NCBI GenBank assembly: GCA_028687755.1
Contig: JAQTZL010000006.1
Coordinates: 1 to 64,000 of the forward strand
Direction of reading: 5' to 3'
Source of the DNA: Candidatus Nanopelagicales bacterium
Lineage (GTDB): Bacteria; Actinomycetota; Actinomycetes; S36-B12
DNA: 64,000 nucleotides
Shown: positions 13,183-35,434 of the stretch, piece after piece
Layout of the letters: every line of letters begins with the position of its first letter
Position numbering within the stretch: position 1 is the stretch's first letter
Made by a program: the position numbers and the translations under genes
Notes under the pieces: generated by a model
Told to the model about the DNA's origin: nothing
The model's input: only the letters and a program-made list of their open reading frames with translations
The model's database searches: none

Positions 13183-13237
13183 TGCGCTCCTTAAACGAGG
13201 CTTCACTCAGATAGCTGTTTGGTTGTTCCAAAGTTAA

Positions 13238-13261: not shown

Positions 13262-13288
13262 AAAACCTAAAAAAGAGTTTCCAAAAGA

Positions 13289-17785: not shown

Positions 17786-17795
17786 GCACAACGTG

Positions 17796-17832
17796 AAAAG
17801 TGACCGACGCATGAGTTGCGTCGGTCACTTTT
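17796..17832 (+). terminator. Intrinsic terminator after SDR copy 1
   Basis: A perfect 16-bp stem (17796-17811 with 17817-17832, core GTGACCGACGCA) is followed by a run of seven T on the plus strand. Confidence 0.9.
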
Positions 17833-17912
17833 TTTGATCGGGCCACATATCAATCCTGAGCCCGCCATAATTCACAAAACAAATCTTCGAATTACGTTCA
17901 ACTGGAGGAAGC

Positions 17913-18689
17913 ATGGAAATCAAGGGCAGATCCGCAATCGTCACCGGTGGTGCTGGTGGCTTTGGCGAAGCAACAGTTCGTCGCCTTGTCGACAAGGGCG
18001 CAAATGTTGTGATCGCAGATCTTCACGATGAGCGCGCAAATGCATTGGTGAAGGACCTTGGTTCCGCAGTGCGTTACGTCCGCACCGACATCACTGACGA
18101 ACAAAATGTCATCGAAGCAGTAAATGCTGCACAGGAAATGGCTCCGCTTGCTTTCGCAGTTGCAGTACATGGCGGCGGCGCAAACGGCGGCGGCGGACCA
18201 CAGCGCATTGTTGACCGCGAGGGCAACCCAATTGCAGTCGAGCACTTCCGTCGCACTGTTGAGGTGTACCTCGTTGGTAACTTCACCGTGTTGTCACGTG
18301 CAGCAGCTGTCATGAGCCAGAACGCTCCAGATGATGACGGCCAGCGCGGCGTATGCCTTGGCACTGCTTCGATCGCAGGCTTTGAAGGTCAAGTTGGTCA
18401 GACTTCATATTCCGCAGCAAAGGGTGGCGTCATTGGTATGACGTTGACCGCAGCTCGCGATATGGGACCTGCAGGCATTCGCTTCATGACGATTGCTCCT
18501 GGCACCTTCCACACCTACGCATACGGCGATGTGCCAATCGAGGCACTCAACGATCGTTTTGCAAAGCTCATCCCTAACCCAAAGCGCATGGGTCATCCAG
18601 ATGAATACGCAAAGCTTGCAATTCAGATTTTCGAAAATGATTTCCTCAATGGCTACACCATCCGCCTTGATGGAGCACAGCGCTTCTAA
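17913..18689 (+). CDS. SDR, HSD10-like 3-hydroxyacyl-CoA dehydrogenase (copy 2)
   Basis: This 258-residue SDR is a tandem paralogue of the previous gene, by eye about four residues in five identical. The TGGAGGFG motif, IADLHDE, TASIAGF and TSYSAAKGG are all kept. The clearest difference is a Gly-rich insertion (GGGANGGGGPQ) near residue 90, in the loop after the central strand, which may alter substrate binding. It has its own ribosome binding site (CTGGAGG) and a 3' terminator. Confidence 0.92.
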   Translation: MEIKGRSAIVTGGAGGFGEATVRRLVDKGANVVIADLHDERANALVKDLGSAVRYVRTDITDEQNVIEAVNAAQEMAPLAFAVAVHGGGANGGGGPQRIVDREGNPIAVEHFRRTVEVYLVGNFTVLSRAAAVMSQNAPDDDGQRGVCLGTASIAGFEGQVGQTSYSAAKGGVIGMTLTAARDMGPAGIRFMTIAPGTFHTYAYGDVPIEALNDRFAKLIPNPKRMGHPDEYAKLAIQIFENDFLNGYTIRLDGAQRF

Positions 18690-18736: not shown

Positions 18737-18770
18737 TTTGTTCGTACCTCTATCGCGTAAGGTCACATCA

Positions 18771-20500: not shown

Positions 20501-21766
20501 ATGAATATCAATGACATGGTGCTGGTGAGCATCGATGACCACATCATCGAAAATCACGACACCTTTAAAAATCACTTCCCTGAGTCCATGAAGGATCAGG
20601 CTCCAAAGCTCGTGAAGCACCCTGATCTTCCTGACGTTGATGCCTGGATGTTCCAGGGCGTATCCGTTGGCAGCCCAGGCTTGAGCGCTGTTGCGTCTTG
20701 GCCAAAAGAAGAGTGGAACTTCAACCCCACCGATCTTTCGGAAATGCGCCCAGGAACCTACGACATTCACCAACGTGTGCGCGACATGAATGCAAACGGT
20801 GTACTTGCTGGCATGAACTTCCCAACCTTCCCAGGCTTCGCAGGCACTCACCTTGCATCACTTCCAGATCAGGCTTTGTCACTCGTTGCCATCAAGGCAT
20901 ACAACGACTGGTTGATGGACGAACTGTGCGGTGCTTACCCAGGTCGCTTCATTCCGATGGGCATCATTCCGTTCTTTGACATGGAAGAGTCCGTTAAGGA
21001 AATTCATCGCCTTGCCGCAAAGGGCTGCCGCTCAATCACCTTGCCTGAAACTCCGTACGGTGTGGGACAAAAGAGTTTCGCTAGTGGTCACTGGGATCCA
21101 GTGTTTAAGGCCATGGTCGACACCAACATGGTGGCTTCACTGCACATCGGTGGCGGCTTTGGTTTGTTGAAGCGCCCAGATGAATTCCTCATCGATGACA
21201 TCGTCATTCTGGCGTCACTCATTTCAACTGTTGCATGTAGCGACATCATGACCAGTGGCGTGATTAAGCGTTTCCCTGACATGAAATTTGCCATGAGTGA
21301 AGGCGGCATCGGTTGGGTTCCATTCTTCCTTGACCGCATGGATCGCCACATGATCAACCAGTCATGGACTCATTTGGACACCATGCCAAAGGGCATGACT
21401 CCAACTGAAGTGTGGAAGAAGAACTTCATGGCCTGCTTCATCACTGATCCAACGGGTCTGACTACTCGCGATCGTTACGGTGTTGAAACCATTTCATGGG
21501 AATGCGATTACCCACATTCAGATTCAACATGGCCTTACTCACCAGAAGTGTTGATTCAGGAACTTGAAGCTGCGAAGTGCAGTGACGCAGAGATCAACAT
21601 GATCACGCATGAAAACGTCGCACGCTTCTTCGACTGGGATCCGTTCAAGCACACACCACGCGACCAAGCAACTGTTGGTGCACTTCGCGCACTTGCAACT
21701 GATGTTGATGTGAGCGAAACATCAAAGCTTGAATACAAGCGTCGTTGGGCAGAAACACACGCATAA
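20501..21766 (+). CDS. Amidohydrolase-superfamily protein (ACMSD/LigW-like), copy 1
   Basis: This 421-residue TIM-barrel protein is of the amidohydrolase 2 type (PF04909). Probable metal or catalytic residues are in SIDDHIIE near residue 10, LHIGGGFG (His) in mid-barrel and WECDYPHSDSTWPYS near residue 330. The first motif has DxH rather than the classic HxH. Relatives hydrolyse or decarboxylate ring-derived carboxylates. The open frame reaches back to 20429, but GAGAGG upstream and the paralogue's start support ATG 20501. A near-identical gene follows at 21963. Confidence 0.9.
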   Translation: MNINDMVLVSIDDHIIENHDTFKNHFPESMKDQAPKLVKHPDLPDVDAWMFQGVSVGSPGLSAVASWPKEEWNFNPTDLSEMRPGTYDIHQRVRDMNANGVLAGMNFPTFPGFAGTHLASLPDQALSLVAIKAYNDWLMDELCGAYPGRFIPMGIIPFFDMEESVKEIHRLAAKGCRSITLPETPYGVGQKSFASGHWDPVFKAMVDTNMVASLHIGGGFGLLKRPDEFLIDDIVILASLISTVACSDIMTSGVIKRFPDMKFAMSEGGIGWVPFFLDRMDRHMINQSWTHLDTMPKGMTPTEVWKKNFMACFITDPTGLTTRDRYGVETISWECDYPHSDSTWPYSPEVLIQELEAAKCSDAEINMITHENVARFFDWDPFKHTPRDQATVGALRALATDVDVSETSKLEYKRRWAETHA

Positions 21767-21780
21767 CCAACTCAGCACTA

Positions 21781-21819
21781 AAGAAGTCCCGTCGAGCCTG
21801 GCTCGGCGGGACTTCTTTG
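21781..21819 (+). terminator. Intrinsic terminator after amidohydrolase 1
   Basis: An 18-bp stem with one G-U pair (21781-21798 with 21802-21819, core GAAGTCCCG) has a three-base loop. It is closely related in sequence to the terminator after amidohydrolase 2. Confidence 0.85.
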
Positions 21820-21913
21820 TAGTGAACACACAGTTGTAAAAGTGGTGACTTAGGACGAACCCGATGGGACCAAAGTCCCTAAGCACAGTTCAACAAAGTG
21901 AGGCAGATTCTCC

Positions 21914-21934
21914 CTATCGAAAGTATTTCCGTAA
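21914..21934 (+). promoter_or_regulatory. Direct-repeat motif site upstream of amidohydrolase 2
   Basis: The plus strand reads CTATCGAAA, GTA, TTTCCGTAA, ending 28 bp before the ATG at 21963. On the other strand this is two direct repeats of a TTNCGNNAA-like unit 12 bp apart. CCATCGG follows, as it does at the 31.78-kb site. It is one of four strong copies in the window. Confidence 0.6.
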
Positions 21935-21962
21935 ACCATCGGAATTGGAGAGTGAGAAGTAG

Positions 21963-23234
21963 ATGAATATCAATGACATGGTGCTGCTGAGCATCGATGA
22001 TCACATCATCGAAGGCCCAGATACCTTTGCAAAGCACTTCCCAGAGTCAATGAAAGACCAAGCTCCAAAGCTCGTGAAGCATCCCGATAATCCAAACGTT
22101 GATGCCTGGATGTTCCAAGGTGTTTCTGTTGGTAGCCCAGGCCTCAGCGCTGTGGTGTCGTGGCCAAAGGAAGAGTGGGGCTTTGATCCAACTGACATTT
22201 CGGAGATGCGCCCAGGTACCTACGACATTCATCAGCGCGTACGCGACATGAACGTCAACGGCGTGCTTGCCGGCATGAACTTCCCAACCTTTCCAGGCTT
22301 CGCAGGCACTCACCTTGCATCGCTGCCAGATAAGAAACTGTCGCTCACAGCGATCAAGGCATACAACGATTATCTGCTTGATGAACTCTGCGGCGCATAC
22401 CCAGGCCGCTTCATTCCTATGGGCATTATTCCTTTCTTCGACGTTGATGAATCAGTCAAGGAAATCAACCGTCTTGCTGCAAAGGGTGTTGGCTGTCGTT
22501 CCATCACGATGCCAGAAACCCCTTACGGCGTTGGTATGCCGGACTTCTCAACCGGATACTGGGATCCAATTTTCAAGGCACTTGTTGACACCGACATGGT
22601 TGCATCCATGCACATTGGTGGTGGCTTTGGTTTGATCCAGCGCCCACCAGTGACACTTCCAGATGACATCGTCATCTTGGCGGCACTCGTATCAACGATT
22701 GCTGCATCAGACTTGCTCACCAGCGGTGTGCTCAAGCGCATCCCTGATATCAAGTTTGCAATGAGCGAAGGCGGATTGGGTTGGATTCCATTCCTTCTTG
22801 ATCGCATGGATCGTCACATGGTGAACCATTCATGGACACACCTTGATTCCCTGCCAAAGGGCAAGACTCCAACCGAGGTTTGGAAGGACAACTTCCTTGC
22901 CTGCTTCATCACTGAGCCAACTGCGCTCCTTACCCGCGAGCGCTATGGCACTCACACCATTGCTTGGGAATGTGATTACCCACACTCAGATTGCACCTGG
23001 CCATACTCACCTGAGTTGTTGCTGAAGGAACTCGAAGCTGCAAACTGCAGTGACAAGGAAATCGACATGATCACGCACGAGAATGTCGCGAACTTCTTCA
23101 ACTGGGATCCGTTCAAGCACACGCCACGTGATCAAGCAACCGTTGGTGGCCTTCGTGCACTTGCAACAGATGTGGACACAAAGGAAACCTCAAAGGCTGA
23201 ATACCGCCAGCGTTACGAGGCTGCACGGGCTTAG
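21963..23234 (+). CDS. Amidohydrolase-superfamily protein (ACMSD/LigW-like), copy 2
   Basis: This 423-residue protein is a tandem paralogue of the product of 20501-21766, by eye about four residues in five identical. All putative metal and catalytic motifs are kept: SIDDHIIE, MHIGGGFG and WECDYPHSD. It has two extra residues in the KGVGCRSI segment. Differences cluster in the region after the mid-barrel His (IQRPPVTLPDD versus LKRPDEFLIDD), which may shape the substrate pocket. Its promoter carries the 21-bp direct-repeat motif, unlike the half site of copy 1, so the copies may be regulated differently. Confidence 0.92.
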   Translation: MNINDMVLLSIDDHIIEGPDTFAKHFPESMKDQAPKLVKHPDNPNVDAWMFQGVSVGSPGLSAVVSWPKEEWGFDPTDISEMRPGTYDIHQRVRDMNVNGVLAGMNFPTFPGFAGTHLASLPDKKLSLTAIKAYNDYLLDELCGAYPGRFIPMGIIPFFDVDESVKEINRLAAKGVGCRSITMPETPYGVGMPDFSTGYWDPIFKALVDTDMVASMHIGGGFGLIQRPPVTLPDDIVILAALVSTIAASDLLTSGVLKRIPDIKFAMSEGGLGWIPFLLDRMDRHMVNHSWTHLDSLPKGKTPTEVWKDNFLACFITEPTALLTRERYGTHTIAWECDYPHSDCTWPYSPELLLKELEAANCSDKEIDMITHENVANFFNWDPFKHTPRDQATVGGLRALATDVDTKETSKAEYRQRYEAARA

Positions 23235-23252
23235 TTCTTTGGGCAGAACTAA

Positions 23253-23290
23253 AAAGAAGTCCCGGTGGCTAGCGCCACCGGGACTTCTTT
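23253..23290. terminator. Bidirectional intrinsic terminator
   Basis: A perfect 17-bp stem (23253-23269 with 23274-23290, core GAAGTCCCGGTGGC) has A and T runs at its ends. It separates the convergent amidohydrolase 2 gene and small minus-strand gene. Confidence 0.9.
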
Positions 23291-23306
23291 ACGTTTATTC
23301 GTTGAA

Positions 23307-23603
23307 TTAGTCGGAAGCTGGAAGAGCTGAAGCCTGCTTCTGTGAAAGTTCTGCGCCCTCGAAGGTGAGTGGACCTTCGCCTGGTGCAACAACCAACACT
23401 TCAATTCCCACTTCATCGTTGCTGTAGCGCTTGCCGAGGGCGATAACTTCGCCTGCGCCCACAGTAGGCGAACCTTCACGAGCATCGGTGGTCATGACCA
23501 CACCAGCGCAAGAGAGTTCACCGGCTTGGGTTGGAGCCTTCACGACGACAACTTCGCAACCTGAAGTGTTGTTACGAAGACGGGCACCTGGTGCAACTGG
23601 CAT
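23307..23603 (-). CDS. Small conserved protein of unknown function
   Basis: This 98-residue protein starts MPVAPGARLRNNTSGCEVVVVKAP and has SCAGVVM in the middle. The layout (an early strand with CEVVVVKAP, then a cysteine-containing xCxGxxM segment) resembles small actinobacterial proteins of unknown function found near CoA-ligase genes, but this is from memory. It appears beta-rich, with no signal peptide or membrane segment. AAAGGA seven bases upstream favours the start at 23603 over the in-frame ATG at 23624. It stands alone between a terminator and a divergent phosphoesterase gene. Confidence 0.7.
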   Translation of the reverse strand: MPVAPGARLRNNTSGCEVVVVKAPTQAGELSCAGVVMTTDAREGSPTVGAGEVIALGKRYSNDEVGIEVLVVAPGEGPLTFEGAELSQKQASALPASD

Positions 23604-23836
23604 TGAGTATTCCTTTCGAGGCACACCGTCGTTCGGGGTGGAACGCGGTGGAGTTCAAATTGTGGCGGTTCTTGTGTGCTGATGCTATGCCAAGCGGGAT
23701 GTGATCTGCCTCCCAGTCGGCTAATTTCACCACCGCGGTAAGCCATTACGCCAGTCCAATCCGGTCAACTCGCCTATTTGGATTCATGCCTTGGCCTAGA
23801 GTCACTCGCGTTGGCCGCAACCCATCTGGAGTCCAT

Positions 23837-24433
23837 GTGAAGCTCGGCATCGTTTCCGATGTTCATTGTCAGGATGAACATCTGCAGCGAACAGTGGAAT
23901 CCATGATCGCCGATGGGGTTGATGAAATCCTGTGTGCCGGCGATGCTCAGTATGAATATCGCCTCAGCAATGAAGTCACCGAAATTATTCGAGACAATCA
24001 GATTCGCTATATCCAAGGCAATCATGAATGGGTCTTGATGGGTCCAAATGGCGAACGCGCTCGCTCAGGAGAACACGTACGCAAATCGAATCTTGACTTC
24101 ATCGCCGAAACACCTGACGAAATCCGTACTACGGTCAGTGGCAAAACACTGCTGATGACTCACGCAAGCCCTTGGGCACCACGCGGTCACTACCTGTATG
24201 CAGGCGACCCACTGTTTTCACGATGCGATGAATTGGATGCAGATTATTTAATTATTGGTCATACCCATGTGCCGATGGTCGAACGATTTGGTCGCACACT
24301 CGTGATTAATCCTGGATCACTTGTGTTTTCTCGAGAACCTGGTGCTTACGGAATGCTCTCGTACGTAATTCTTGACACCACAACGGATGAAGTCACAATG
24401 ATGCATCCGCCAAAGGATTCCCAAGCTTCGTAA
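23837..24433 (+). CDS. Calcineurin-like metallophosphoesterase (YfcE/MJ0936 type)
   Basis: This protein of about 198 residues has the five metallophosphoesterase blocks: SDVH, GDAQ (a variant of GD), GNHE, a single His in MTHASPWAPRG, and GHTH. NPGSLVFSRE near the end is typical of YfcE-like phosphodiesterases. It uses two metal ions to hydrolyse phosphoesters; the substrate is unknown. The GTG at 23837 with CTGGAG upstream fits the start of homology. An ATG at 23786 adds 17 residues. It is probably a housekeeping gene within the island. Confidence 0.88.
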   Translation: MKLGIVSDVHCQDEHLQRTVESMIADGVDEILCAGDAQYEYRLSNEVTEIIRDNQIRYIQGNHEWVLMGPNGERARSGEHVRKSNLDFIAETPDEIRTTVSGKTLLMTHASPWAPRGHYLYAGDPLFSRCDELDADYLIIGHTHVPMVERFGRTLVINPGSLVFSREPGAYGMLSYVILDTTTDEVTMMHPPKDSQAS

Positions 24434-24444
24434 TGCGCTGAGAG

Positions 24445-25452
24445 TTATGCGAGATGAGCGGCCAGGACTGGTACTTCCGCAAGTGCACGCAACGCATCAT
24501 TCATGTGTGTACATCCATCAATACCAGGCAACAGCACATTCACGTTTGAGCGGAAATCGCGAATAGGTTGACCCACCAAACGATGCACCGACAATGTTGC
24601 CATTGGGCATTCCAAGAATGGAAGCACTTGAGGTATCGCTTCAATAGCTGTTACAAGGCCACTCACGACATTCACTCGCGCCTGAATCGTGTATTCATGC
24701 ACTGCGATTCGATTGCCAGATGGTGCGGTTCCCGAATCTTGGAAGAACGAATCAATGACCCACTCGTCTTCCTCGCGCCAGACATCGATTCGACGTGATC
24801 TGCGAGCAGAAACTTCGGTGGTCTCGAATAGTTCATGCCATGCGTAAGGGTCAAATTCCACAGGAAGATTCGGCACAACTCGAGTTGCGTGTTTTGCTGG
24901 TGGGCCATCTTCACCTAACGCAGATGCACCTTGTTGGAACCCAGCGCAAATCCCCACCATTTTAAGTTTGCGCGATTTGATATCTGGATCCAACGAGTCC
25001 ATTTTCGGTAATTCACCTGGGGCCATCCAATGAGTAAATGCGAATCCCGAAACCAAGGTCGCCCCAGAAATATCGTCAAGTAAAAGATACAGAGGTGTTC
25101 CCCTTTGAACTTGATCTGGAAATGACTCAACAATTTTGGTGCGCAACCCACCCTTCATATCGATCAGGACATCGATTCCCTCGAGTGCTGGAATGGTGGA
25201 AATCTCACTGATTACTCGATTCGGGCGAACCGTGACGTTCAGAACATCTTCTGCAATCACAGCCGGCGAAGAGTTGTCGGCGGGTGTGAAGAGGTCACGA
25301 CATCTACCAATGAGGTGCATATCTGCATCGCGAATATCCCCATCCCATGTCGCGTCAATGGTTGAAGTACGTCGGATTGAATTGTTCCTGCGAGCAGGGG
25401 TTGGTACGGCTGGGCCAATGGGTTGAATGCCAGCAGGCACATCGACAGCCAT
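24445..25452 (-). CDS. DUF2889 protein (copy 1)
   Basis: This protein of about 335 residues is of the DUF2889 type. It has an early IRRTSTID block, GTPLYLLLDDISGA mid-protein, FFQDS, AVHEY and the C-terminal signature GCTHMNDALRALAEV. No function is established. The Cys-Thr-His motif could bind a metal or be catalytic, but that is inference. AAAGGGAAAGC before ATG 25452 supports that start; the frame is open to 25521. A paralogue lies 52 bp upstream and a third copy is at 48563, always among CoA-ester genes. Confidence 0.85.
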   Translation of the reverse strand: MAVDVPAGIQPIGPAVPTPARRNNSIRRTSTIDATWDGDIRDADMHLIGRCRDLFTPADNSSPAVIAEDVLNVTVRPNRVISEISTIPALEGIDVLIDMKGGLRTKIVESFPDQVQRGTPLYLLLDDISGATLVSGFAFTHWMAPGELPKMDSLDPDIKSRKLKMVGICAGFQQGASALGEDGPPAKHATRVVPNLPVEFDPYAWHELFETTEVSARRSRRIDVWREEDEWVIDSFFQDSGTAPSGNRIAVHEYTIQARVNVVSGLVTAIEAIPQVLPFLECPMATLSVHRLVGQPIRDFRSNVNVLLPGIDGCTHMNDALRALAEVPVLAAHLA

Positions 25453-25504
25453 GCTTTCCCTTTCCTCGGCCGGTCTGCAGTGAGTACCGGCTTGTGTGAC
25501 AAAA

Positions 25505-26509
25505 CTACTGAAGTGAAGCAACCAGGATTGGAACTTCAGCTAGCGCACGAAGTGCATCATTCAAATGCGTGCAACCCAAGGTTCCAGGTAATTGATCTAC
25601 CACTGCTTGGCGGAAGTCTTGTACTGGAATTCCGATCATGCGGTGCACGTTCTTCGCTGCCTGAGGGCAAGCATCAAAGGGAAGCACTCTTGGATCTACA
25701 TTCAAAGTTAGCAATTCGCCAGTGTGCAGATCTGCCGTCCCGTTCAAGCAGTATTCGTGGACTGCAACTCTGCCGTGGCTTGGTGTCGTGCAGCTGTCTT
25801 GGAAGTACGCATCAAAATGAATGTCATCATCAATCCACGCGTCGATGCGTCGCGCACGACGCAAGGCAGGTTGATCAGTTTCATCTTGAAGTTTGTGCCA
25901 AGCAAGTGGATCCGTATCAGTTGTCAGAGGGCCCGCAGGTTGCACCTGATGGATGAGTAGACACTTTCCATCTTCGCCAATTGCGTTTGATCCAGCTGCA
26001 TAACCCATACATACGTCGATGGGAGCCATGAAGTCGCCACTCATGTGAGAACTTCGCTGCTCAGGCGCAATCCATTCAACAAGCACATGGCCTGAAATGA
26101 ATAACGCGCCTGGCATGTCATCCAGCAATAAATACAAGGGGCTTCCCGCTTCTCGTTCTTCCGGAACGAGGCTATTCATCACGCGGCGCGAGTTGGGTGT
26201 TCCTTCGGGCCCGACCATGGCTTGCAAAGCAGGGCGATCAGGAAAACTGAAGAGAAATTCATAGGAGCGGTCTTGGTTGACCGTCGCTACCAACACATCA
26301 TCTGCAAGAACTTTGGTCTCATCACCGTTGGTGAGGAAGTCACGCGCACGTCCGCGAACCCGTCGACTTTCTTGGAGTCCATTGGGAAAGTCGATGTCGA
26401 GTGTGGACGTTCGCCGAATTGAATGCGGCGGGCGAGGTGGACTTGGATTGCTCGGCCCACTAACTGCATTGGTGAGCACACGCCCAACAACGGGGAGTTC
26501 ATACGGCAC
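25505..26509 (-). CDS. DUF2889 protein (copy 2)
   Basis: This 334-residue protein is a paralogue of the downstream DUF2889 protein. It has SIRRTSTLDIDF near residue 30, GSPLYLLLDDMPGALFISGH, YFQDS, AVHEY and CTHLNDALRALAEV. A Pro-rich N-terminus (SNPSPPRPPH) probably is a flexible tail. The two genes run in the same direction and are probably cotranscribed. The first faces the SDR/DUF35/thiolase-like operon across a 160-bp divergent region with a strong motif copy. The function is unknown. Confidence 0.85.
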   Translation of the reverse strand: MPYELPVVGRVLTNAVSGPSNPSPPRPPHSIRRTSTLDIDFPNGLQESRRVRGRARDFLTNGDETKVLADDVLVATVNQDRSYEFLFSFPDRPALQAMVGPEGTPNSRRVMNSLVPEEREAGSPLYLLLDDMPGALFISGHVLVEWIAPEQRSSHMSGDFMAPIDVCMGYAAGSNAIGEDGKCLLIHQVQPAGPLTTDTDPLAWHKLQDETDQPALRRARRIDAWIDDDIHFDAYFQDSCTTPSHGRVAVHEYCLNGTADLHTGELLTLNVDPRVLPFDACPQAAKNVHRMIGIPVQDFRQAVVDQLPGTLGCTHLNDALRALAEVPILVASLQ

Positions 26510-26618
26510 GTTTCATCCTCAAGAGCGCACGGTCACTTCAATCACTTCGAGAGTAGCCGATGCCCGATTTGTCGGGAGTGTTTTGGTTCAAGCAATTTCG
26601 GTGAAACCCGGACAAGTC

Positions 26619-26639
26619 GTATCGAAAGATTTACCGTGA
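26619..26639 (+). promoter_or_regulatory. Direct-repeat motif site upstream of the SDR/DUF35/Ltp operon
   Basis: The plus strand reads GTATCGAAA, GAT, TTACCGTGA, ending 29 bp before the ATG at 26669. Both halves and the three-base spacing match the sites at 21914 and 31871. The near-constant distance to the start codon would also suit an alternative-sigma promoter. Confidence 0.6.
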
Positions 26640-26668
26640 GCCCACTGCCAATCGGAAAAGAGTCGTAC

Positions 26669-27475
26669 ATGAACATGCTGGATCTCACGGGCCGCGTTGC
26701 AATCATTACCGGTGGTGGAACAGGTATCGGAGCCACAACAGCACACCTCTTCGCCGAGCACGGCGCTGACGTCGTGCTTTCTGGCCGCAAGGTTGAACGC
26801 TTGCAGACCACCGCAGAAGAGATCATGGCCACAACTGGGCGCCGAGCAATTGCTGTACAGACCGACGTTCGCGAAGACGATCAAGTGCAGAACATGATCG
26901 ATCGTACGATCAATGAGTTCGGCCAACTCGACATTCTGATCAACAATGCCGGTGGGGCCTACATGTTTCCTACCAAAGACACCCCGCCGGATCGTTTCCG
27001 TAATGCCATCGAACTCAACCTGACATCTGCGTACCTGTGTGCACATGCCGCGCTTCCACATCTCTTGAAGTCCAAGCATGCCTCAATCGTTTCGATGTCA
27101 TCGGCAGCGGGCGTGCAAGGCGTCAAAGGCGGCTCTGCCTACTCAGCGGGCAAGGCTGGCTTGCAGATGTTCACCCGCGTGATCGCTGCCGAATGGGGTC
27201 CAAAGGGCGTACGCGCTAATGCGATTGCCGTTGGTGGTGTTGCCTCCGAAGGTGCGCTGCGTTCATGGGAGCGGTTTGGCATGGATGCGGAAAGCATGGG
27301 AGCGAATGTGCCCCTGCGTCGAGTTGGGTACCCAATCGATATTGCCAATGGTGCGTTGTTCTTCTGCAGTGAGATGAGCAGCTGGATCACAGGCCAAACA
27401 CTTTCCATTGATGGTGGCCCGCATGGGATGGGCGGACTCACTGATGACGCCCTATGGCCAGAAGACAGCGAATAG
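26669..27475 (+). CDS. Short-chain dehydrogenase/reductase
   Basis: This 268-residue classical SDR has TGGGTGIG near residue 14, NNAGGAYMFP, and catalytic Ser in SMSSAAG with Tyr/Lys in SAYSAGKAG. SGRKVERL suggests NADP binding. The ending has TGQTLSIDGGPHG. The frame is open far upstream (to 26423), but that part reads through the promoter, so the ATG at 26669 is used. It is the first gene of a three-gene operon with a DUF35 and a thiolase-like gene, and may oxidise or reduce the hydroxyl involved in the aldol-type step. Confidence 0.92.
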   Translation: MNMLDLTGRVAIITGGGTGIGATTAHLFAEHGADVVLSGRKVERLQTTAEEIMATTGRRAIAVQTDVREDDQVQNMIDRTINEFGQLDILINNAGGAYMFPTKDTPPDRFRNAIELNLTSAYLCAHAALPHLLKSKHASIVSMSSAAGVQGVKGGSAYSAGKAGLQMFTRVIAAEWGPKGVRANAIAVGGVASEGALRSWERFGMDAESMGANVPLRRVGYPIDIANGALFFCSEMSSWITGQTLSIDGGPHGMGGLTDDALWPEDSE

Positions 27476-27488
27476 AAAAGGAAACGAC

Positions 27489-27911
27489 ATGACAACTGAG
27501 GTTCTTCCACCCCTTCCGCTGCCAAATGAATTAACTGCACCCTTTTGGGATGGCGCAAACAATGGTCAATTGGTCATTCAACGTTGCAACGCTTGCGGAT
27601 ATTTCCAGCATGCACCGGAACCAATCTGTGCACACTGCTTAAGTTTTGACCTCGGTCATGCAGCGGTGTCCGGCAAGGGTTCGGTCTACACCTTCTGCAT
27701 TCCAACCCAGGCGTTCCATCCTTGGTTTGAAGACAAACTGCCATTTGTTCTCGCCGTTGTTGAACTTGATGAACAACCAGGATTGAAGATGATCACAAAC
27801 ATCGTGGAAATCGATCCCGAAAGTGTCAAGGTTGGCGATCGCGTTGAAGTCACCTTTGCTCCCCTCGGTGAAGGCTTCACCTTGCCCGTCTTCCGCCCAG
27901 CTGCCCAGTAA
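27489..27911 (+). CDS. DUF35 zinc-ribbon/OB-fold protein (pair 1)
   Basis: This 140-residue protein has a zinc ribbon with Cys33, Cys36, Cys47 and Cys50 (CNACG and CAHC), then an OB-fold with SGKGSVYTF and FAPLGEGF. DUF35 proteins bind CoA thioesters and pair with thiolase-like enzymes. In steroid side-chain degradation the DUF35 part of ChsH2 activates the aldolase Ltp2. AAAGGA before ATG 27489 supports the start. It lies 13 bp after the SDR gene and 30 bp before its thiolase-like partner. Confidence 0.92.
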   Translation: MTTEVLPPLPLPNELTAPFWDGANNGQLVIQRCNACGYFQHAPEPICAHCLSFDLGHAAVSGKGSVYTFCIPTQAFHPWFEDKLPFVLAVVELDEQPGLKMITNIVEIDPESVKVGDRVEVTFAPLGEGFTLPVFRPAAQ

Positions 27912-27941
27912 CTACTGGCTTATCTACTTCAGGAGTTACTC

Positions 27942-29096
27942 ATGGCTAAAAAGAATCGTGTTGCAATCGTCGGTGTTGGTTACTCAGATGTAAGCCGCGG
28001 CAGCGGTCTAACTCTCGACAAGCTGACTGCGCAATCAAGCGTTGCTGCAATGAATGACGCTGGCATTAAGCCAACAGATATTGATGGCGTTGTGGTGCAC
28101 AGCTTCCCGCATCAGTTTGTTTCATCAACCCATACCGCTGCAATGCTCGGAATTCCTGATGTTGCTTTCTATTCAGGCAACGTTGACGGTGCTGCATACA
28201 GTGTCGCTGCCATGCACGCAATTGCTGCGATTGCTTCTGGTTCGGCTGAAACTGTGTTGACCCTTCGCACGGTCCATAAGGCAGGTGCTGCCGGCGGTGC
28301 AGCGATGCTTGGGCCACAGCGCGGCATTCCAGGCAACATGCAATTCGGTATGCCCTACGGATCATTTACCGGATCGCACTGGGCCGGCATGTACATGCAG
28401 CGCCACATGGCGATGTACGGATCAACTGAAGAAGACTTCGGTGCATTCGCAATCGCTCAGCGCAAGTTTGCCGTTGCCAACCCAACTGAATCCTTCTTCC
28501 ATGAAGAACTCACCATGGATGACTACATGAACTCGCGTTACATCGCAAAGCCACTGCATCTGCTCGACTGCGACTACCCGGTTGATTCATCCAGCGCATT
28601 GATCTTTACGACTGAAGAACGTGCACGTGACATGAAGCAAAAGCCAGTCTTCTTTGATTCATGGGCAAATGGCACCACCGCGGAAGCTGACTTCAGTTTG
28701 GTTCGCGACATGACCCATTCATCACCGTGGATGGCAGCAAAGCGCATGTGGTCACGCACGGATCTCAAGCCAAGCGATGTGAACACTGCTGGCCTTTATG
28801 ACGGTTTCAGTTTCATCGCCATGCAGTGGTTGGAAGCACTTGGATTCTGTGACGAAGGGGGAAGCGGTGCTTTTGTTCGCTCAGGAGCAACAAGTGCTAC
28901 TGGTTCATTGCCAACGAACACTGACGGTGGAGCATGCAACGTTGGTCGTCGCCATGGTGCGAACTTCTTTATTGAAGTCACCCGTCAACTTCGTGGCACT
29001 GCAGGCGACCGCGCGCTGCCAAATAAGCCTGAGGTTGGTGTTGTGAGCAACGCAGTTGGTGGCTTTGCTGCTTGTGCGCTACTGACTGCAGAGTAG
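27942..29096 (+). CDS. Thiolase-like lipid-transfer protein, Ltp2-type (pair 1)
   Basis: This 384-residue protein has a thiolase fold of the SCP2/lipid-transfer group. At the usual nucleophile position it reads GNVDGAAYSVAAMHA, without a cysteine. AGLYDGFSFIAMQWLEALGF is typical of Ltp2-like retro-aldolases, which use tyrosines for C-C cleavage instead of thiolysis. The adjacent DUF35 partner supports this assignment. It would release a ketone or aldehyde from a hydroxylated side-chain CoA ester. AGGAG stands before the ATG. The stop is directly next to that of the convergent SRPBCC gene. Confidence 0.9.
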   Translation: MAKKNRVAIVGVGYSDVSRGSGLTLDKLTAQSSVAAMNDAGIKPTDIDGVVVHSFPHQFVSSTHTAAMLGIPDVAFYSGNVDGAAYSVAAMHAIAAIASGSAETVLTLRTVHKAGAAGGAAMLGPQRGIPGNMQFGMPYGSFTGSHWAGMYMQRHMAMYGSTEEDFGAFAIAQRKFAVANPTESFFHEELTMDDYMNSRYIAKPLHLLDCDYPVDSSSALIFTTEERARDMKQKPVFFDSWANGTTAEADFSLVRDMTHSSPWMAAKRMWSRTDLKPSDVNTAGLYDGFSFIAMQWLEALGFCDEGGSGAFVRSGATSATGSLPTNTDGGACNVGRRHGANFFIEVTRQLRGTAGDRALPNKPEVGVVSNAVGGFAACALLTAE

Positions 29097-29552
29097 CTAC
29101 TGAACTACTGGTGTCGCTGCATGCGTGGCAACACCAGTAGCAAGTTGCATACCGAGTTTGCCTAGAGCCAACTTCCAGAACCAGCCGGTGCCTACAAGCT
29201 TTGGACGAAACTGCGAACTCCATGTAATCGTGCACCCGGTAGCAGTTGGAGTGACGTCAACGTCGGCTCGGTAATCCTTCACCGCAACCAGTTTGCTTTC
29301 GTTCAGCGTGTACGCGAACTTTGTTGGCGCGTTGATTTCAACGATCTGCTCGAGATTCATCATCAAACCGCTGTTCCATTGACGGATTGCGCCAACACTC
29401 TCGCCGCCATCCACGCCTGGCGTATGCAGCGCGTAGGTCTTAATAGGACTCCACTGTGGCCAGGTCTCACCATGGGCAAGCAGTGCAAACACAGCCTCGG
29501 CCGATGCAGTCGACTCTGCGGTCGCACTGACTTTGATGAGTTCGCTAGCCAC
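29097..29552 (-). CDS. SRPBCC (START-like) family protein
   Basis: This 151-residue protein starts with a strand containing VSATAESTASAEAVFALLAHGETWPQWSP, a typical SRPBCC/polyketide-cyclase opening, and has repeated beta strands with GCTITW. The last 25 residues form a hydrophobic amphipathic helix (KLALGKLGMQLATG). Such proteins bind hydrophobic ligands in a helix-grip pocket. It lies 11 bp downstream of the enoyl-CoA hydratase gene on the same strand and is probably cotranscribed. The ligand is unknown. Confidence 0.85.
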   Translation of the reverse strand: MASELIKVSATAESTASAEAVFALLAHGETWPQWSPIKTYALHTPGVDGGESVGAIRQWNSGLMMNLEQIVEINAPTKFAYTLNESKLVAVKDYRADVDVTPTATGCTITWSSQFRPKLVGTGWFWKLALGKLGMQLATGVATHAATPVVQ

Positions 29553-29563
29553 AGCGGTGCTCC

Positions 29564-30409
29564 TTAACGTCCGGTGAACTTCGGTGCGCGCTTTTCCTTG
29601 AAGGCAAGCATGGCCTCCTGGCCGTCTGGGCCAGGACCCATACCGAGGTACGTAACCTCATCCTTCCACGACTGACGCATGTTCTGATCCAGAGCATCGT
29701 TGAGCTGGGCCTTTATCTGTCCGATCATGATTGTTGGTCCATTGGCCAAACGCTCAGCAACTTCGGTAGCTTTCGCGAGAACTTCAGCAGGCGGAACCAC
29801 AACGTTTACTAGGCCCCATTCAAGTGCCTTTGGCGCTGGGAGTGGATCTCCGAAAAGCGCGATCTCCTTAGCGCGCACTGGGCTCACGCTGCGAGAAAGA
29901 ATGTATGCAGCACTTGCTTCTAGCGGCAGACCACGCTGAACAAAGACTTCGCAGAAGCGAGCAGTTTCACCAGCAACGATGTAATCGGCGGCTAGAGCGA
30001 AGTTCGCACCAAAGCCATACGCCGCACCATCAACAGCAGCAACGATTGGCTTGAGGTTGTGCCACATTTTTTCGATAACGCGGTACCAACCATGCAGCAA
30101 GCCATCTTCGCGAGCAATGTGTTGCTGGAATCCACGGCGATAGTCCGCAGGAATTTCAATGTGATCCGCTTCAGTCAAGTCGGCACCCGAACAAAAAGCG
30201 CCGTCGGCACCATGAATCACTGCAGCACGAATGTCTGCATTGATGTTGACTTCATCAAGAGCCTTGAGAATCGCGTTGCGCAAAGGGTGCGTCACTGCAT
30301 TCTTAATATGCGGACGATTCAAAACAAGAAAGGCAACTTGATTCTTTACGTAGAAATCAAGGCCGGCTTCTTTCCATGCTGCGATATCTGGTCTTGTGTA
30401 ATGTTCCAT
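29564..30409 (-). CDS. Enoyl-CoA hydratase/isomerase
   Basis: This 281-residue crotonase-fold protein has the oxyanion-hole motifs HGADGAFCSGADLTEAD near residue 65 and DGAAYGFGANFALAAD near residue 120. The usual catalytic Glu position falls in RGLPLEASAAYILSR, where Glu stands in place of the commoner Asp. It hydrates or isomerises enoyl-CoA, though ring-opening or decarboxylase activity cannot be excluded for this superfamily. It shares a transcript with the SRPBCC gene. Confidence 0.92.
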   Translation of the reverse strand: MEHYTRPDIAAWKEAGLDFYVKNQVAFLVLNRPHIKNAVTHPLRNAILKALDEVNINADIRAAVIHGADGAFCSGADLTEADHIEIPADYRRGFQQHIAREDGLLHGWYRVIEKMWHNLKPIVAAVDGAAYGFGANFALAADYIVAGETARFCEVFVQRGLPLEASAAYILSRSVSPVRAKEIALFGDPLPAPKALEWGLVNVVVPPAEVLAKATEVAERLANGPTIMIGQIKAQLNDALDQNMRQSWKDEVTYLGMGPGPDGQEAMLAFKEKRAPKFTGR

Positions 30410-30518
30410 GAATCGTCATTCCTTTGTGAGTGTTCCGCTAAGACTTCTTGCATGAAGATCGTTGGAGCCACTATTTCATCTTCATCGGTTGTTTGTGCGA
30501 TGTGTTGGAAAGTAATAC

Positions 30519-30556
30519 AAAGAAGCGGCGTCCGGAATTCCGGACGCCGCTTCTTT
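30519..30556. terminator. Terminator, perfect 38-bp palindrome
   Basis: Two 19-base arms (core GAAGCGGCGTCCGGAA) meet with no unpaired loop in the sequence. AAA and TTTT ends suit termination on either strand. It lies 14 bp beyond the stop of amidohydrolase 3. Confidence 0.88.
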
Positions 30557-30570
30557 TACGTATCGAGCAA

Positions 30571-31713
30571 TTAGCCCTTGCGTGGGAAGTTGTACACGCG
30601 ACGAGCATTGAGTTCTGCTATCTTTGCGGCTTCATCATTTGGCACGTTTGCAAGTGACTCTTCGAGCATCTTGCGGGTGTGTGGCCAGTTGCTGTCTGAG
30701 TGTGGGTAATCCGACTCAAACATGATGTTGTCGATGCCAATGAGGTGGCGGGAGAAGATGCCTGCATCGTCGTAGATGAACGGTGCATACATGTTCTTGA
30801 ACCACAGCTCTGAAGGCTTGATTTCGCGGTTCACATCGTTGTACCAACGGTGGCGATCCCAGACGTAGTCAATACGCTCGAGCATGTAAGGAACCCAGCC
30901 AATGCCGCCTTCACTCAACACGAACTTCACATCTGGGTAGTTGTGGAACACAGGTGACAGCAACAATTCTGCGGTTGCGTTAGCTGAGTTCAACGCGAAG
31001 AGTGAAATACCGACGGTGAAGTTGGTGGTGACGCCTTCTGTTGACACGCCTGGTGGGAAACCACCTGAACCGAAGTGGATCGAGATTGGCATGTTGCGAT
31101 CGGTTGCTGCTTGCAGCATTGGGTTCCAGTGATCGGTGTGCCATGAAGGAAGGCCCAGACGATGTGGGAGCTCAACGAAGGTGAAACTCTTTGCACCCTT
31201 GTCGGCTGTGCGGTGAATTTCCTTGACCGTGAGGTCAACATCCCACCATGGCACGATCACAAGCGGAATCTGACGGTCTGGGTAAGCAGCACACCATTCG
31301 TCGATGATCCAGTCGTTGTATGCCTGGATTGATGCAAGGCCGAGTTCTTTGTCCTTGGAGGTCGCAAAGGTTGTGCCAGCGAAGCCAGCCATGTTCGGGA
31401 AGTTCAACTGTGCATGAACACCTTCGATGTCCATGTCTTTAATCCGCTCATGAATGTCATGGCAGCCATCGCGCATGTCATCATATGAACGAGGGTCCAT
31501 TGCGATGTCTTCTTTTGCACGGCCTGCGACTGCGTTCAACGCAAAGTTGCCTGCTTGTGCACCTTCGTATGTCCAGTGATCGCCATTGACTGCGTCACGA
31601 ACCAGATTCGGGCCGGCTTCCTTGAACTTGGCTGGAAGGCGATCGGTCCACACAGTTGGGTGTTCAATTACGTGGTCATCAACACTGATGATCTGTACGT
31701 CTTTTTCAAGCAC
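30571..31713 (-). CDS. Amidohydrolase-superfamily protein, copy 3
   Basis: This 380-residue protein belongs to the same amidohydrolase 2 group as the tandem pair at 20.5-23.2 kb but is more distant and about 40 residues shorter. The motifs are SVDDHVIEHP near residue 10, SIHFGSGGF in mid-barrel and FESDYPHSDSNWPHT near residue 330. The shared DDH, HFGSGG and DYPHSDSxWP blocks imply the same metal-dependent chemistry on a related substrate. It is divergent from a CoA-transferase gene; both promoters in that 212-bp region carry the 21-bp direct-repeat motif. Confidence 0.9.
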   Translation of the reverse strand: MLEKDVQIISVDDHVIEHPTVWTDRLPAKFKEAGPNLVRDAVNGDHWTYEGAQAGNFALNAVAGRAKEDIAMDPRSYDDMRDGCHDIHERIKDMDIEGVHAQLNFPNMAGFAGTTFATSKDKELGLASIQAYNDWIIDEWCAAYPDRQIPLVIVPWWDVDLTVKEIHRTADKGAKSFTFVELPHRLGLPSWHTDHWNPMLQAATDRNMPISIHFGSGGFPPGVSTEGVTTNFTVGISLFALNSANATAELLLSPVFHNYPDVKFVLSEGGIGWVPYMLERIDYVWDRHRWYNDVNREIKPSELWFKNMYAPFIYDDAGIFSRHLIGIDNIMFESDYPHSDSNWPHTRKMLEESLANVPNDEAAKIAELNARRVYNFPRKG

Positions 31714-31925: not shown

Positions 31926-33161
31926 ATGAGTGGTCCAATGAAGGGAGTGCGCGTTCTTGAGATCGCGCAGTTCACTTTCGTCCCTGCAGCAGGAGCAGTG
32001 CTTTGCGACTGGGGCGCCGACGTCATCAAGATTGAGCATGCCGTCACTGGCGATGCCCAGCGTGGTCTCGTTCGAGTGATGGGCCTTGATGCTCTGGCTC
32101 CAGGATCAAGTTTCTTCCCAATCATGGAAGGCCCAAACCGCGGCAAGCGCAGCATCGGTATGGACCTGACCAAGCCTGAGGCTCAGGAAATTCTTCGTGA
32201 ACTCGTGCTCAACAGCGACGTTCTCCTCACTAACTTCTTGCCAGGCCCACGCCGCAAGATGGGTATTGACGTTGATCAAATCAAGGCAATCAACCCAAAT
32301 ATCATTTACGTGCGCGGTACTGCCTTTGGTAACAAAGGTGACGAGCGCGACAAGGGTGGTTACGACTCAACGGGTTTCTGGGCTCGCAGTGGCGCAGGCT
32401 GGGCAACCACCTGGGATGACGCAACTGACCTCACTCAGATGCCAACCGGCGCTTTCGGTGACAACACCGGTGGCATGACCATTGCAGGTGGCGTCGCAGC
32501 AGCGCTATACAAGCGTGCAGTCACTGGCGAAGCATCAGTGGTTGACGTTTCGCTGCTTGGCGTTGGCGCATGGTCAACCCAGTTTGGCTCAAACCTTGCC
32601 ATGCTTATTGGCGGACCAACCCCCGCTCCAAAGCGCGTTCCACCTGCTGGCACACCAGGCAACCCGCTCACTGGTTCGTACCGCACCAAGGATGGCCGCT
32701 TCATCATGTTGACCATGTTGCAGCCAGGTCAGTACTGGCCAATGTTCTGCGATGCGTTCAACAAGCCTGATTGGAAGGCAGATCCTCGCTTTGCAGATGC
32801 CGGCTTAATCGTGCAAAACGGTTACGAAGGCCGCGCCTTGGTTGCTGAACTTTTTGCGTCAATGAACCTTGAAGAGCTCAAGGCCGTCCTAGGAACCCAG
32901 ACTGGTCAATGGGCAGTTGTTCAAGACTTCTGGGAAATCAGCCAAGACAAGGGTCTTCGCGACAACGGCTTGATCGCCAAGGTCGTCGACGCTGATGGCA
33001 AGGACCGCGAGCTCGTTGCCAGCCCAGTGCTCTTCGACGAAGTGAACCCAACCCTTACCCGTGCACCACAGTTCGCTGAGCACACTGATGAGGTCATGCG
33101 TGAGCTTGGCATCAACGACGAGAAGCTCATTGAGCTCAAGATCGCTGGCGCAATCACCTAA
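31926..33161 (+). CDS. Family III CoA-transferase (CaiB/BaiF type)
   Basis: This 411-residue protein moves CoA between acyl groups through an aspartyl-CoA intermediate. The start GVRVLEIAQFTFVPAAGAVL and WGADVIKIEH is typical. The catalytic Asp is expected in GAFGDNTGGMTIAGG near residue 182. RTKDGRFIMLTMLQ marks the C-terminal half. It probably activates a substrate acid with a CoA ester as donor. AAGGAG lies before the ATG. It is followed by a terminator and then a dehydrogenase gene. Confidence 0.93.
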   Translation: MSGPMKGVRVLEIAQFTFVPAAGAVLCDWGADVIKIEHAVTGDAQRGLVRVMGLDALAPGSSFFPIMEGPNRGKRSIGMDLTKPEAQEILRELVLNSDVLLTNFLPGPRRKMGIDVDQIKAINPNIIYVRGTAFGNKGDERDKGGYDSTGFWARSGAGWATTWDDATDLTQMPTGAFGDNTGGMTIAGGVAAALYKRAVTGEASVVDVSLLGVGAWSTQFGSNLAMLIGGPTPAPKRVPPAGTPGNPLTGSYRTKDGRFIMLTMLQPGQYWPMFCDAFNKPDWKADPRFADAGLIVQNGYEGRALVAELFASMNLEELKAVLGTQTGQWAVVQDFWEISQDKGLRDNGLIAKVVDADGKDRELVASPVLFDEVNPTLTRAPQFAEHTDEVMRELGINDEKLIELKIAGAIT

Positions 33162-33211: not shown

Positions 33212-33298
33212 GCTTTTCTAGGCCATTTGGGATAAAGAGTTCGATAATTCCGCTATTCTTTTTCTCGTTTGGTCGTTGAACTTTCGAAAGGAACTGCC

Positions 33299-35434
33299 AT
33301 GTCCCTGGCTCTCACCGAAGAACACCGCTCACTCGCGGACGTTGCTCGCTCATTGCTCGCCGACAACGGAGGCATCGCGCAGGCTCGCGCAACGCTTGAC
33401 GCGCCAACAGAAGTGCTCCCAGCATTCTGGGCACCTTTCATTGACAACGGCATGTTTGGTCTTCACTTGCCTGAAGAATTCGGCGGCCAAGGCTTTGGCC
33501 TCGAAGAGACCGCCATCGTTGTTGAAGAACTTGGTCGCGTTGTTGCACCAGGTGCCTTCCTTCCAACGGTTGTTGTTTCAGCAACCATCGCTGCTGCAGG
33601 CACCGACGCACAGAAACAAGCATTGCTTCCAGGTTTTGCAGAGGGCACATCTAGTTCAGGTTTCTCGCTGCGCAACAACGTCAGCGTTGCAGGCGGCAAG
33701 GCGAGCGGAACCGCAAAGTCAGTAACTTCTGCTGAACTTTCAACGCACCTTGCATTTGTTGTTGGTAATGACCTCGTCATCGTTCCTGCATCAAATGCAA
33801 CCATCACGCCTAATAAGTCAATTGATGATTCCCGTCGCAATGCCAAGGTTGAACTCAAGGATGCACCTGCAGAAGTCATCGTTGGTGGTGGCGAACTCGC
33901 TCTTCGCATCGGTCGCGTGCTTGCTGCAGCAGAAGCTGCAGGTGGTGCACGTATAACCACAGAACTTGCAACCGAATACGCGAAGATTCGCGAACAGTTC
34001 GGTCGCACAATCTCAACCTTCCAGGCCATCAAGCATCACTGCGCCAATATGTTGATTCAGACAGAGATGGCAACAGCTGCTGCTTGGGATGCCGCTCGTA
34101 CCGTTCTTGATCCAAAGGCTGGCCCAATCGCAGCAGCTGCAGCAGCAGCTCTCGCATTGCCAGCCTTTGAATTCAATGCTCGCAAGAACATTCAGATCCA
34201 CGGCGGTATCGGCTTCACTTGGGAGCACGATGCACATCTGTACTTCAAGCGTGCTGCTGCAACTGCAGTAATTTTCGGAACCTCCGATGATGCTGCAGCT
34301 GACCTCACTGCGTTAAGCGCAAACGGCAACCATCGTGTGTATGCCTTCGATCTACCTGAAGAAGCTGAAAGCTTCCGTGCAGAAGCAAAGGCTGCAGTTG
34401 CTGCCTATCACGCAGCTGCAGATGCTGATAAGCGTCGCGTGCTCTTTGAATCCGGTTACTTGGTTCCTCACTGGGGCAAGCCTTGGGGTCGTCAGGCATC
34501 GGCTGTTGAGCAGATTGTGATCGAAGAAGAGTTCACCGGAATTGATGTTCCTAACCTCGGCATCACCGGCTGGGTTGGTTTGACCTTGTCGCAACTGGCT
34601 ACCGAAGATCAGGTTCAGCGTTGGTTGCGCCCAGCAATGCTCGGTGAAACGGTGTGGTGCCAGCTGTTCTCGGAACCAGGTGCCGGATCAGACGCAGCCG
34701 CTGTTTCAACTAAGGCCGTCAAGGTCGATGGTGGCTGGAAGGTTGATGGCCAAAAGGTCTGGACTTCCGGCGCTCAGTACTGCCAGTTCGGTCTAGCAAC
34801 AGTGCGCACAGATCCAGAGGCACCAAAGCACAAGGGTGTCACCGCAATGGTGATCAAGATGGATGCACCAGGTGTAACCATCCGCCCACTTCGCGAAAAC
34901 AGTGGCGATGAAATGTTCAACGAAGTCTTTTTCGATGGCGTGTTTGTTGCAGATGAAGATGTCGTTGGTGACATCAATAACGGCTGGGCTGTCGCTCGCG
35001 CAACCCTTGGAAACGAGCGAGTGACCATCGGTGGTCAGGCTCGTAACGGTATTGATGCATACGACCTCATCGATCTCTTGCCAGGCGGCGTCAAGGCTGA
35101 TCTTGGTCATGATCGCGAAGTTGGCAAGCAGGTAGCACTCGAGCAGGTCATTCGCTTGATGAACCTTCGCGCTGCAACGCGTGCAGTTATTGGTTCAGGT
35201 CCAGGAGCTGAAGGCAACATCACCAAGGTTCTTGTTTCTGAACTTGCTCAGTCCACGACTGAAGTTGCAATGAAGCTGCTTGAAGATGGTGGCGTCGATG
35301 GTGAAAACGCAGAGATCACCTACCAGTACGTCTTCAATCGTTGCCTCACCATTGCAGGCGGCACTTCAGAAATTAGCCGCAACGTAATCGCTGAACGAAT
35401 CCTTGGAATGCCACGAGATCCACTGATTCGTTGA
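33299..35434 (+). CDS. Fused two-domain acyl-CoA dehydrogenase (FadE34-like)
   Basis: This 711-residue protein contains two complete acyl-CoA dehydrogenase modules. The N-terminal one (about 1-345) has QAIKHHCANM and HGGIGFTWEHDAHLYFKR. The C-terminal one (about 375-711) has LFSEPGAGSDAAA, VDGQKVWTSG and GGTSEISRNVIAERILGMP. This is the single-chain version of the alpha2beta2 enzymes, like mycobacterial FadE34, which acts on steroid side-chain CoA esters. AAAGGA before ATG 33299 supports the start over 33269. The stop overlaps the TTG start of the MFS gene. Two split pairs of the same enzyme type also occur in the window. Confidence 0.93.
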   Translation: MSLALTEEHRSLADVARSLLADNGGIAQARATLDAPTEVLPAFWAPFIDNGMFGLHLPEEFGGQGFGLEETAIVVEELGRVVAPGAFLPTVVVSATIAAAGTDAQKQALLPGFAEGTSSSGFSLRNNVSVAGGKASGTAKSVTSAELSTHLAFVVGNDLVIVPASNATITPNKSIDDSRRNAKVELKDAPAEVIVGGGELALRIGRVLAAAEAAGGARITTELATEYAKIREQFGRTISTFQAIKHHCANMLIQTEMATAAAWDAARTVLDPKAGPIAAAAAAALALPAFEFNARKNIQIHGGIGFTWEHDAHLYFKRAAATAVIFGTSDDAAADLTALSANGNHRVYAFDLPEEAESFRAEAKAAVAAYHAAADADKRRVLFESGYLVPHWGKPWGRQASAVEQIVIEEEFTGIDVPNLGITGWVGLTLSQLATEDQVQRWLRPAMLGETVWCQLFSEPGAGSDAAAVSTKAVKVDGGWKVDGQKVWTSGAQYCQFGLATVRTDPEAPKHKGVTAMVIKMDAPGVTIRPLRENSGDEMFNEVFFDGVFVADEDVVGDINNGWAVARATLGNERVTIGGQARNGIDAYDLIDLLPGGVKADLGHDREVGKQVALEQVIRLMNLRAATRAVIGSGPGAEGNITKVLVSELAQSTTEVAMKLLEDGGVDGENAEITYQYVFNRCLTIAGGTSEISRNVIAERILGMPRDPLIR

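Follow-up and report, generated by a model that had tools for sequence, protein, structure and literature searches.

Three PF04909 proteins encoded in a coenzyme A-ester degradation locus of an actinobacterium resemble the dinuclear oxygenases DitZ and PtmU3

We analysed 64,000 nucleotides of DNA from Candidatus Nanopelagicales bacterium (assembly GCA_028687755.1, contig JAQTZL010000006.1, positions 1 to 64,000; hereafter the window), in which an earlier note, made from the letters alone, had pointed out three amidohydrolases and proposed that they hydrolyse or decarboxylate ring-derived acids. Because sequence, ligands, tree and fold all group these proteins with DitZ and PtmU3, we are highly confident that they belong to the amidohydrolase-related dinuclear oxygenases (AROs; family name from PMC10811679), and we call them ARO1 to ARO3. 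Our full proposal, which we hold to be fairly probable, is that these are PtmU3/DitZ-type enzymes that use O2 to hydroxylate a cyclic acyl-coenzyme A (acyl-CoA) at its beta carbon, after which a ChsH2–Ltp retro-aldolase cleaves the product. The three genes lie as follows.

20501..21766, + strand: ARO1 (P0001), 421 amino acids, DitZ-type dinuclear oxygenase by its sequence; ligand positions D12, H14, H215, E267, D336, H339, D341
21963..23234, + strand: ARO2 (P0002), 423 amino acids, tandem paralogue of ARO1; ligand positions D12, H14, H217, E269, D338, H341, D343
30571..31713, - strand: ARO3 (P0003), 380 amino acids, from a separate ARO clade and without the C-terminal extension; ligand positions D12, H14, H213, E268, D335, H338, D340

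All three open reading frames (ORFs) were confirmed at these coordinates, and 20501 was taken as the correct start of ARO1 because the alignment with DitZ begins there. Each protein matches Pfam PF04909 (1e-20 to 3e-32, a similarity well outside what chance would give), which bears out the placement in the amidohydrolase superfamily, and an NCBIfam search of the three returned no named family. ARO1 and ARO2 are 80% identical over 423 residues, so that "near-identical", as the pair had been described, was an overstatement; ARO3 shares about 39% identity with either. The motifs that had been listed as DDH, HxGSG/HIGGGFG and DYPHSDSxWP were located, with variants among the copies: the first reads SIDDHIIE/SVDDHVIE, the second HIGGGFG in ARO1 and ARO2 and HFGSGGF in ARO3, and the third DYPHSDSTWP, DYPHSDCTWP or DYPHSDSNWP. 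The DxH that the earlier note had singled out as unusual is present in all three; its "DDH" is the D-x-H of the dinuclear ligand set, and DxH is a hallmark of AROs.

The closest solved structure for all three proteins is that of DitZ (8uyr; E values of 7e-197 for ARO1 and 4e-74 for ARO3), which is 64% identical to ARO1 and ARO2 and 35% identical to ARO3. PtmU3 was the second match (2e-34 and 7e-38, respectively), whereas decarboxylases came up far more weakly, at only about 1e-10 to 1e-6. The metal ligands of AibH2 are reported as D25, H27, H211, E265, D337 and H340, with D342 nearby (PMC7782822), and those of LynB7 as D11, H13, H197, E252, D320 and H323, possibly with D325 (PMC10127204). In an alignment to the AibH2, LynB7 and PtmU3 sites, all seven active-site positions match in ARO1, ARO2 and ARO3: the six ligands of the dinuclear site (D-x-H, H, E, D-x-x-H) are followed, two residues past the last His, by an acidic residue (D341, D343 and D340). 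PMC7782822 reports an acidic residue after the PH motif in dinuclear members only. The ligand alignment as a whole comprises 123 rows, 119 of which read DHHEDH and then D or E; with two fragments set aside this is 119 out of 121 rows with full data, the other two deviating at the seventh position alone. The same alignment places E313 of PtmU3 (E308 in a fragment starting at residue 6) at the seventh position. The mononuclear enzymes ACMSD and LigW are marked by HxH or ExH as first motif and by no added acidic ligand past PH; ARO1 to ARO3 all have DxH and PHSD.

For the fold comparison we used an AlphaFold2 model of ARO1, with a mean predicted local distance difference test (pLDDT) value of 87. 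The model matched DitZ with Z 56.2, at 1.4 Å with 404 residues aligned, followed by PtmU3 (Z 34.8) and, in third place, an uncharacterised Mycobacterium avium protein (4dzi; Z 32.4). Other AROs scored about 30, ACMSD 28.4, and ACMSD/LigW-type decarboxylases 28.4 or less. In a tree of 96 sequences, ARO1 and ARO2 fall in two paired lineages that are confined to the genus, and the sister clade of the pair holds DitZ, its Rhodococcus and Williamsia orthologues and other paralogues of this genus, while ARO3 was placed in another, supported ARO clade. Both by closest sequence and by tree position, the window proteins fall in the DitZ/PtmU3 subgroup. ACMSD and LigW, against which the earlier note had suggested comparing them, are mononuclear decarboxylases and much more distant. 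The outcome that the note had named beforehand as a refutation, namely that the proteins clearly match an enzyme whose known function is a different one, has come about and speaks against hydrolysis and decarboxylation. The PF04909 label "amidohydrolase" is misleading for ARO1 to ARO3. The three do not make up a new enzyme class, since the ARO family was described in 2019–2024; they add to a known family, in a setting that is new and informative.

DitZ, from Rhodococcus rhodochrous and solved in Mn-substituted form, resembles ARO1 and ARO2 over their full length, C-terminal extension included, and is identical to them at every ligand position. Its orthologues in Rhodococcus and Williamsia have other neighbours (a P450, a fused ChsH2-Ltp and an aldehyde dehydrogenase), and the literature that we searched yielded no published DitZ activity. 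PtmU3 (6omp), from platensimycin and platencin biosynthesis, shares the ligands, the TIM barrel and a CoA-linked setting with the window AROs, but is only 25–28% identical, carries Glu at the seventh position, where the window AROs have Asp, belongs to a separate clade and acts in a biosynthetic rather than a catabolic context. It is reported to be a nonheme diiron monooxygenase, with C-5 of diterpenoid-CoA intermediates as the site of hydroxylation (PMC10127204, PMC7782822), and the same sources term it a beta-hydroxylase and describe CoA-ligated substrates and a larger cavity. AibH2, SfbO and other Rieske-linked AROs share the six ligands and the acidic residue; they differ in sequence (20% structural-alignment identity or less), in their Rieske ferredoxin linkage and in their small, non-CoA substrates. 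ACMSD, LigW and gamma-resorcylate decarboxylase have the same superfamily and barrel as the window AROs, but are mononuclear and non-redox, with 16–20% identity.

The repeated link to CoA-ester degradation that the earlier note had seen was upheld, as the window is rich in CoA enzymes: a ligase, CaiB transferases, acyl-CoA dehydrogenases, MaoC-type hydratases, SDRs and thiolases. It also codes for an F420-dependent LLM enzyme and a LIV-type ABC transporter, the latter read from the ORFs. The features that bear on the proposed pathway are listed below.

10757-11278, 11284-11682 and 11692-12189, + strand: three MaoC/FAS1-dehydratase-type genes
12247..14230, - strand: tandem two-domain VOC proteins, 82% identical
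17021..18689, + strand: tandem SDR dehydrogenases, 82% identical
24445..26509, - strand: two DUF2889 proteins (39% identical), situated between ARO2 and the OB_ChsH2–Ltp1 pair
27408..27911, + strand: OB_ChsH2 (DUF35 zinc ribbon plus OB fold), paired with Ltp1 (27942); the actual start probably lies within the ORF
27942..29096, + strand: Ltp1, thiolase-fold retro-aldolase candidate with a YDGF motif and without the thiolase cysteines; top PDB match, TcLtp2 aldolase (6ok1)
31926..33161, + strand: CaiB-type CoA transferase
33269..35434, + strand: fused two-half acyl-CoA dehydrogenase; top PDB matches, Thermomonospora curvata Tcur3483/Tcur3481
38279..39475, + strand: SCP2-type thiolase with both cysteines kept (NAC80, HDC297F)
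41768..42958, - strand: Ltp3, second retro-aldolase candidate, with YDGF; top PDB match, 6ok1
42955..43392, - strand: second OB_ChsH2, adjoining Ltp3
43425..44933, - strand: acyl-CoA ligase, which likely activates the acid substrate

Ltp1 and Ltp3 have an aldolase-type active site: both show the thiolase fold without the catalytic cysteines, each has a DUF35 partner, and the base Tyr of the YDHF motif, described for the steroid retro-aldolase TcLtp2 (PMC12329534), is kept as YDGF. The gene at 38279, by its cysteines, encodes a true SCP2-type thiolase, unlike Ltp1 and Ltp3.

In the mechanism that we propose, D12, H14, H215, E267, D336 and H339 (ARO1 numbering) would form a site for two metals, Fe/Fe or Mn/Fe, bridged by a carboxylate, and D341 would serve as a labile ligand or lie in the second sphere. 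This site would activate O2 and hydroxylate an unactivated C–H of a cyclic acid, held, as the gene context suggests, as its CoA thioester; the likeliest target would be a tertiary carbon in the beta position of the thioester, by analogy with PtmU3 at C-5 of its diterpenoid-CoA. The resulting beta-hydroxyacyl-CoA would form without the need for an alpha-hydrogen and would bypass the alpha-quaternary block on beta-oxidation. C-4 of diterpenoid acids is quaternary, and a quaternary alpha carbon makes dehydrogenation impossible. The adjacent ChsH2(DUF35)–Ltp retro-aldolase would then cut the alpha–beta C–C bond, opening a ring or releasing a short acyl-CoA, and the fragments would pass into ordinary beta-oxidation. 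Ring opening, which had been suggested as a step of the amidohydrolases themselves, may thus remain the outcome, now divided between hydroxylation and a retro-aldol step by another enzyme. The substrate may be polycyclic and isoprenoid-like, and ARO1, ARO2 and ARO3 may divide the labour among them. In cholesterol side-chain breakdown, a dehydrogenase and a hydratase make the beta-hydroxyacyl-CoA. Ltp2–ChsH2 is reported to cut that intermediate (PMC12329534). An ARO that hydroxylated the beta carbon with O2 would yield a product of the same kind.

We surveyed the linkage of AROs to ChsH2–Ltp in 40 ARO regions of 20 kb or less, drawn from actinobacteria of other genera (20 genomes), using iterated profiles, with 20 arbitrary and 20 CaiB-centred regions from part of those genomes as controls. 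Ltp and ChsH2 occurred together at 11 of the 40 ARO loci, compared with 0/20 arbitrary and 1/20 CaiB-centred regions; when ChsH2 and Ltp were each compared with the CaiB set by a one-sided Fisher test, p was 0.037 and 0.052, respectively. Within the genus, where the link is tighter, the two sister genomes G002 (L174, 4143-6665) and G003 (L183, 4207-6664) have PtmU3-clade AROs inserted in this cluster, directly between two ChsH2–Ltp pairs, and G002 also carries a consecutive ARO-ARO-ChsH2-Ltp run (L180). ChsH2–Ltp likewise stands beside an ARO in L023 and on plasmid DNA from both Mycobacterium branderi and Rhodococcus YL-1; the M. branderi plasmid has ChsH2, a thiolase and an ARO adjacent to one another, and a Massilia plasmid an ARO and a thiolase.

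Several observations weigh against our proposal. The second catalytic Tyr (Y344 of TcLtp2) is not kept in Ltp1 or Ltp3, both of which have Arg there, and for this reason we call them candidates only, their sequence making an aldolase assignment likely but not secure; Sal likewise lacks the second Tyr and is reported to use Cys instead (PMC12329534). The MaoC hydratases and acyl-CoA dehydrogenases of the cluster could form a beta-hydroxyl on their own. Relative to the CaiB-centred regions, enrichment is modest, and its p-values are optimistic, as the loci are non-independent, with several per genome; at 29 of the 40 surveyed ARO loci, no Ltp plus ChsH2 was found within 10 kb. The window contains no Rieske ferredoxin gene, with six elsewhere in the genome. 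Finally, the activity of the AROs is itself a prediction.

These 29 loci, together with the SDR genes that flank the AROs, would fit dinuclear oxygenases that act on CoA esters but hydroxylate elsewhere, for instance at a gamma or remote ring position, with a product that is oxidised by the SDRs and not cut by Ltp. We regard this as rather unlikely, given that PtmU3 targets the beta carbon and that Ltp–ChsH2 pairs adjoin AROs in several lineages. It is more doubtful still that the window enzymes are dinuclear oxygenases of something other than a CoA ester, for instance a free acid, an amine or a sulfonate: AibH2 and SfbO do combine the common ligand set with small free substrates, but the window proteins branch with DitZ and PtmU3, the latter of which takes CoA-ligated substrates in a larger cavity, and their locus is dense in CoA enzymes. 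The original view, that the three are metal-dependent hydrolases or decarboxylases with a mononuclear site and act on ring-derived acids, draws on the fact that ACMSD and LigW are recognisable relatives in sequence and fold within the same superfamily. It now appears highly improbable, and we have dropped it as contradicted by ligands, sequence, tree and fold: every dinuclear ligand is present, including the acidic residue past the PH motif, and DitZ and PtmU3 are far closer.

A Rieske ferredoxin as local electron donor was also set aside, as none is encoded in the window and Rieske motif counts at ARO loci (10/40, most of them chance matches) were not clearly above those of the controls (2/20 and 3/20). 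Rieske-ferredoxin linkage was the route by which SfbO-type AROs were found; it defines the AibH2/SfbO subgroup and not AROs at large, PtmU3 being an ARO.

AROs are a regular feature of the genus, all nine genomes of which carry 3–10 (E<=1e-60). At the same threshold, none was found in 26 genomes of the same family that represent 13 further genera; of 24 genomes elsewhere in the order, one has a single ARO, and across the phylum AROs occur in 26 of 295 other genomes (E<=1e-70). The order and most neighbours of the three ARO genes recur in other genomes of the genus. A related gene set, mostly 42–65% identical and comprising VOC, two MaoC, MoxR, VWA, acyl-CoA dehydrogenases, a ligase, CaiB and ARO3, lies on the linear plasmid pYLL1 of Rhodococcus sp. 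YL-1, and this set together with the patchy distribution points to a spread of the module by horizontal transfer. Near relatives are on record as metagenome-assembled genomes under the names Candidatus Nanopelagicales bacterium and Actinobacteria bacterium, and these records suggest fresh water as the habitat.

More tentatively, we suggest that this freshwater genus may have built a catabolic route on several AROs that beta-hydroxylate alpha-quaternary cyclic acyl-CoAs, resin-acid- or terpenoid-like, ahead of ChsH2–Ltp, the tandem copies of ARO, SDR and VOC handling parallel substrates. If so, the route would be an oxygen-driven detour round blocked beta-oxidation, and, if the substrate is terpenoid-like, a gene set for the breakdown of such acids in freshwater bacteria. 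It would also give DitZ-type AROs a concrete catabolic role, that of supplying beta-hydroxyacyl-CoA to a retro-aldolase where beta-oxidation is blocked. PF04909 is routinely annotated as amidohydrolase, a label that here would conceal O2-activating oxygenases, and the enzymes should be tractable, DitZ having been crystallised. An unexplained 5-hydroxylation of dehydroabietic acid is reported in Pseudomonas abietaniphila (PMC13063091); the position number is the same as that of the PtmU3 oxidation in its own diterpenoids.

The adjacent tandem pairs are of similar divergence (VOC and SDR 82%, ARO 80%) and are kept in several genomes (L019, L174); it looks as if three steps of a single pathway had been duplicated in concert. 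A strain-specific recent duplication of the AROs was rejected, as a six-frame search showed that ARO, SDR and VOC occur as pairs throughout the genus. The source genome has a fourth PF04909 protein (L187, 9246-10466; C2:197542), whose first motif is DADQH, not DDH; its gene directly adjoins one for a two-domain VOC protein 33% identical to the window VOCs. On pYLL1 (L194), two inverted ARO3 copies (18001-19133 and 28127-29259) are both broken near residue 174, which may reflect a shared frameshift, a sequencing error or another cause. A replacement of P450s by AROs in a P450-poor genus was considered and discarded, as genomes of the genus have 1–6 P450s and five other genomes of the family 3–7, which is no clear difference.

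A MoxR-type AAA ATPase (7697-8632) and a CoxE-like VWA protein (9311-10720) are kept with the cluster across the genus and on pYLL1. MoxR/VWA pairs often mature metalloenzymes; as a general metal-insertion helper of AROs the pair was rejected, neither MoxR nor VWA being found near the 40 ARO loci elsewhere. The DUF2889 proteins (PF11136; function unassigned) at 24445-25461 and 25505-26509 are joined by a third at 48563-49558. DUF2889 was present in 11 of 26 sampled ARO-bearing genomes outside the genus versus 0/26 without ARO, a taxonomically confounded comparison, and it adjoins an ARO in genome G147 (L095); this co-occurrence is a possible lead to a DUF2889 role in CoA-ester catabolism. The window also holds two tandem MFS transporters (49646-52207; 43% identical) and two tandem ABC substrate-binding proteins (57312-60025; 39%), which hints at the import of at least two related substrates.

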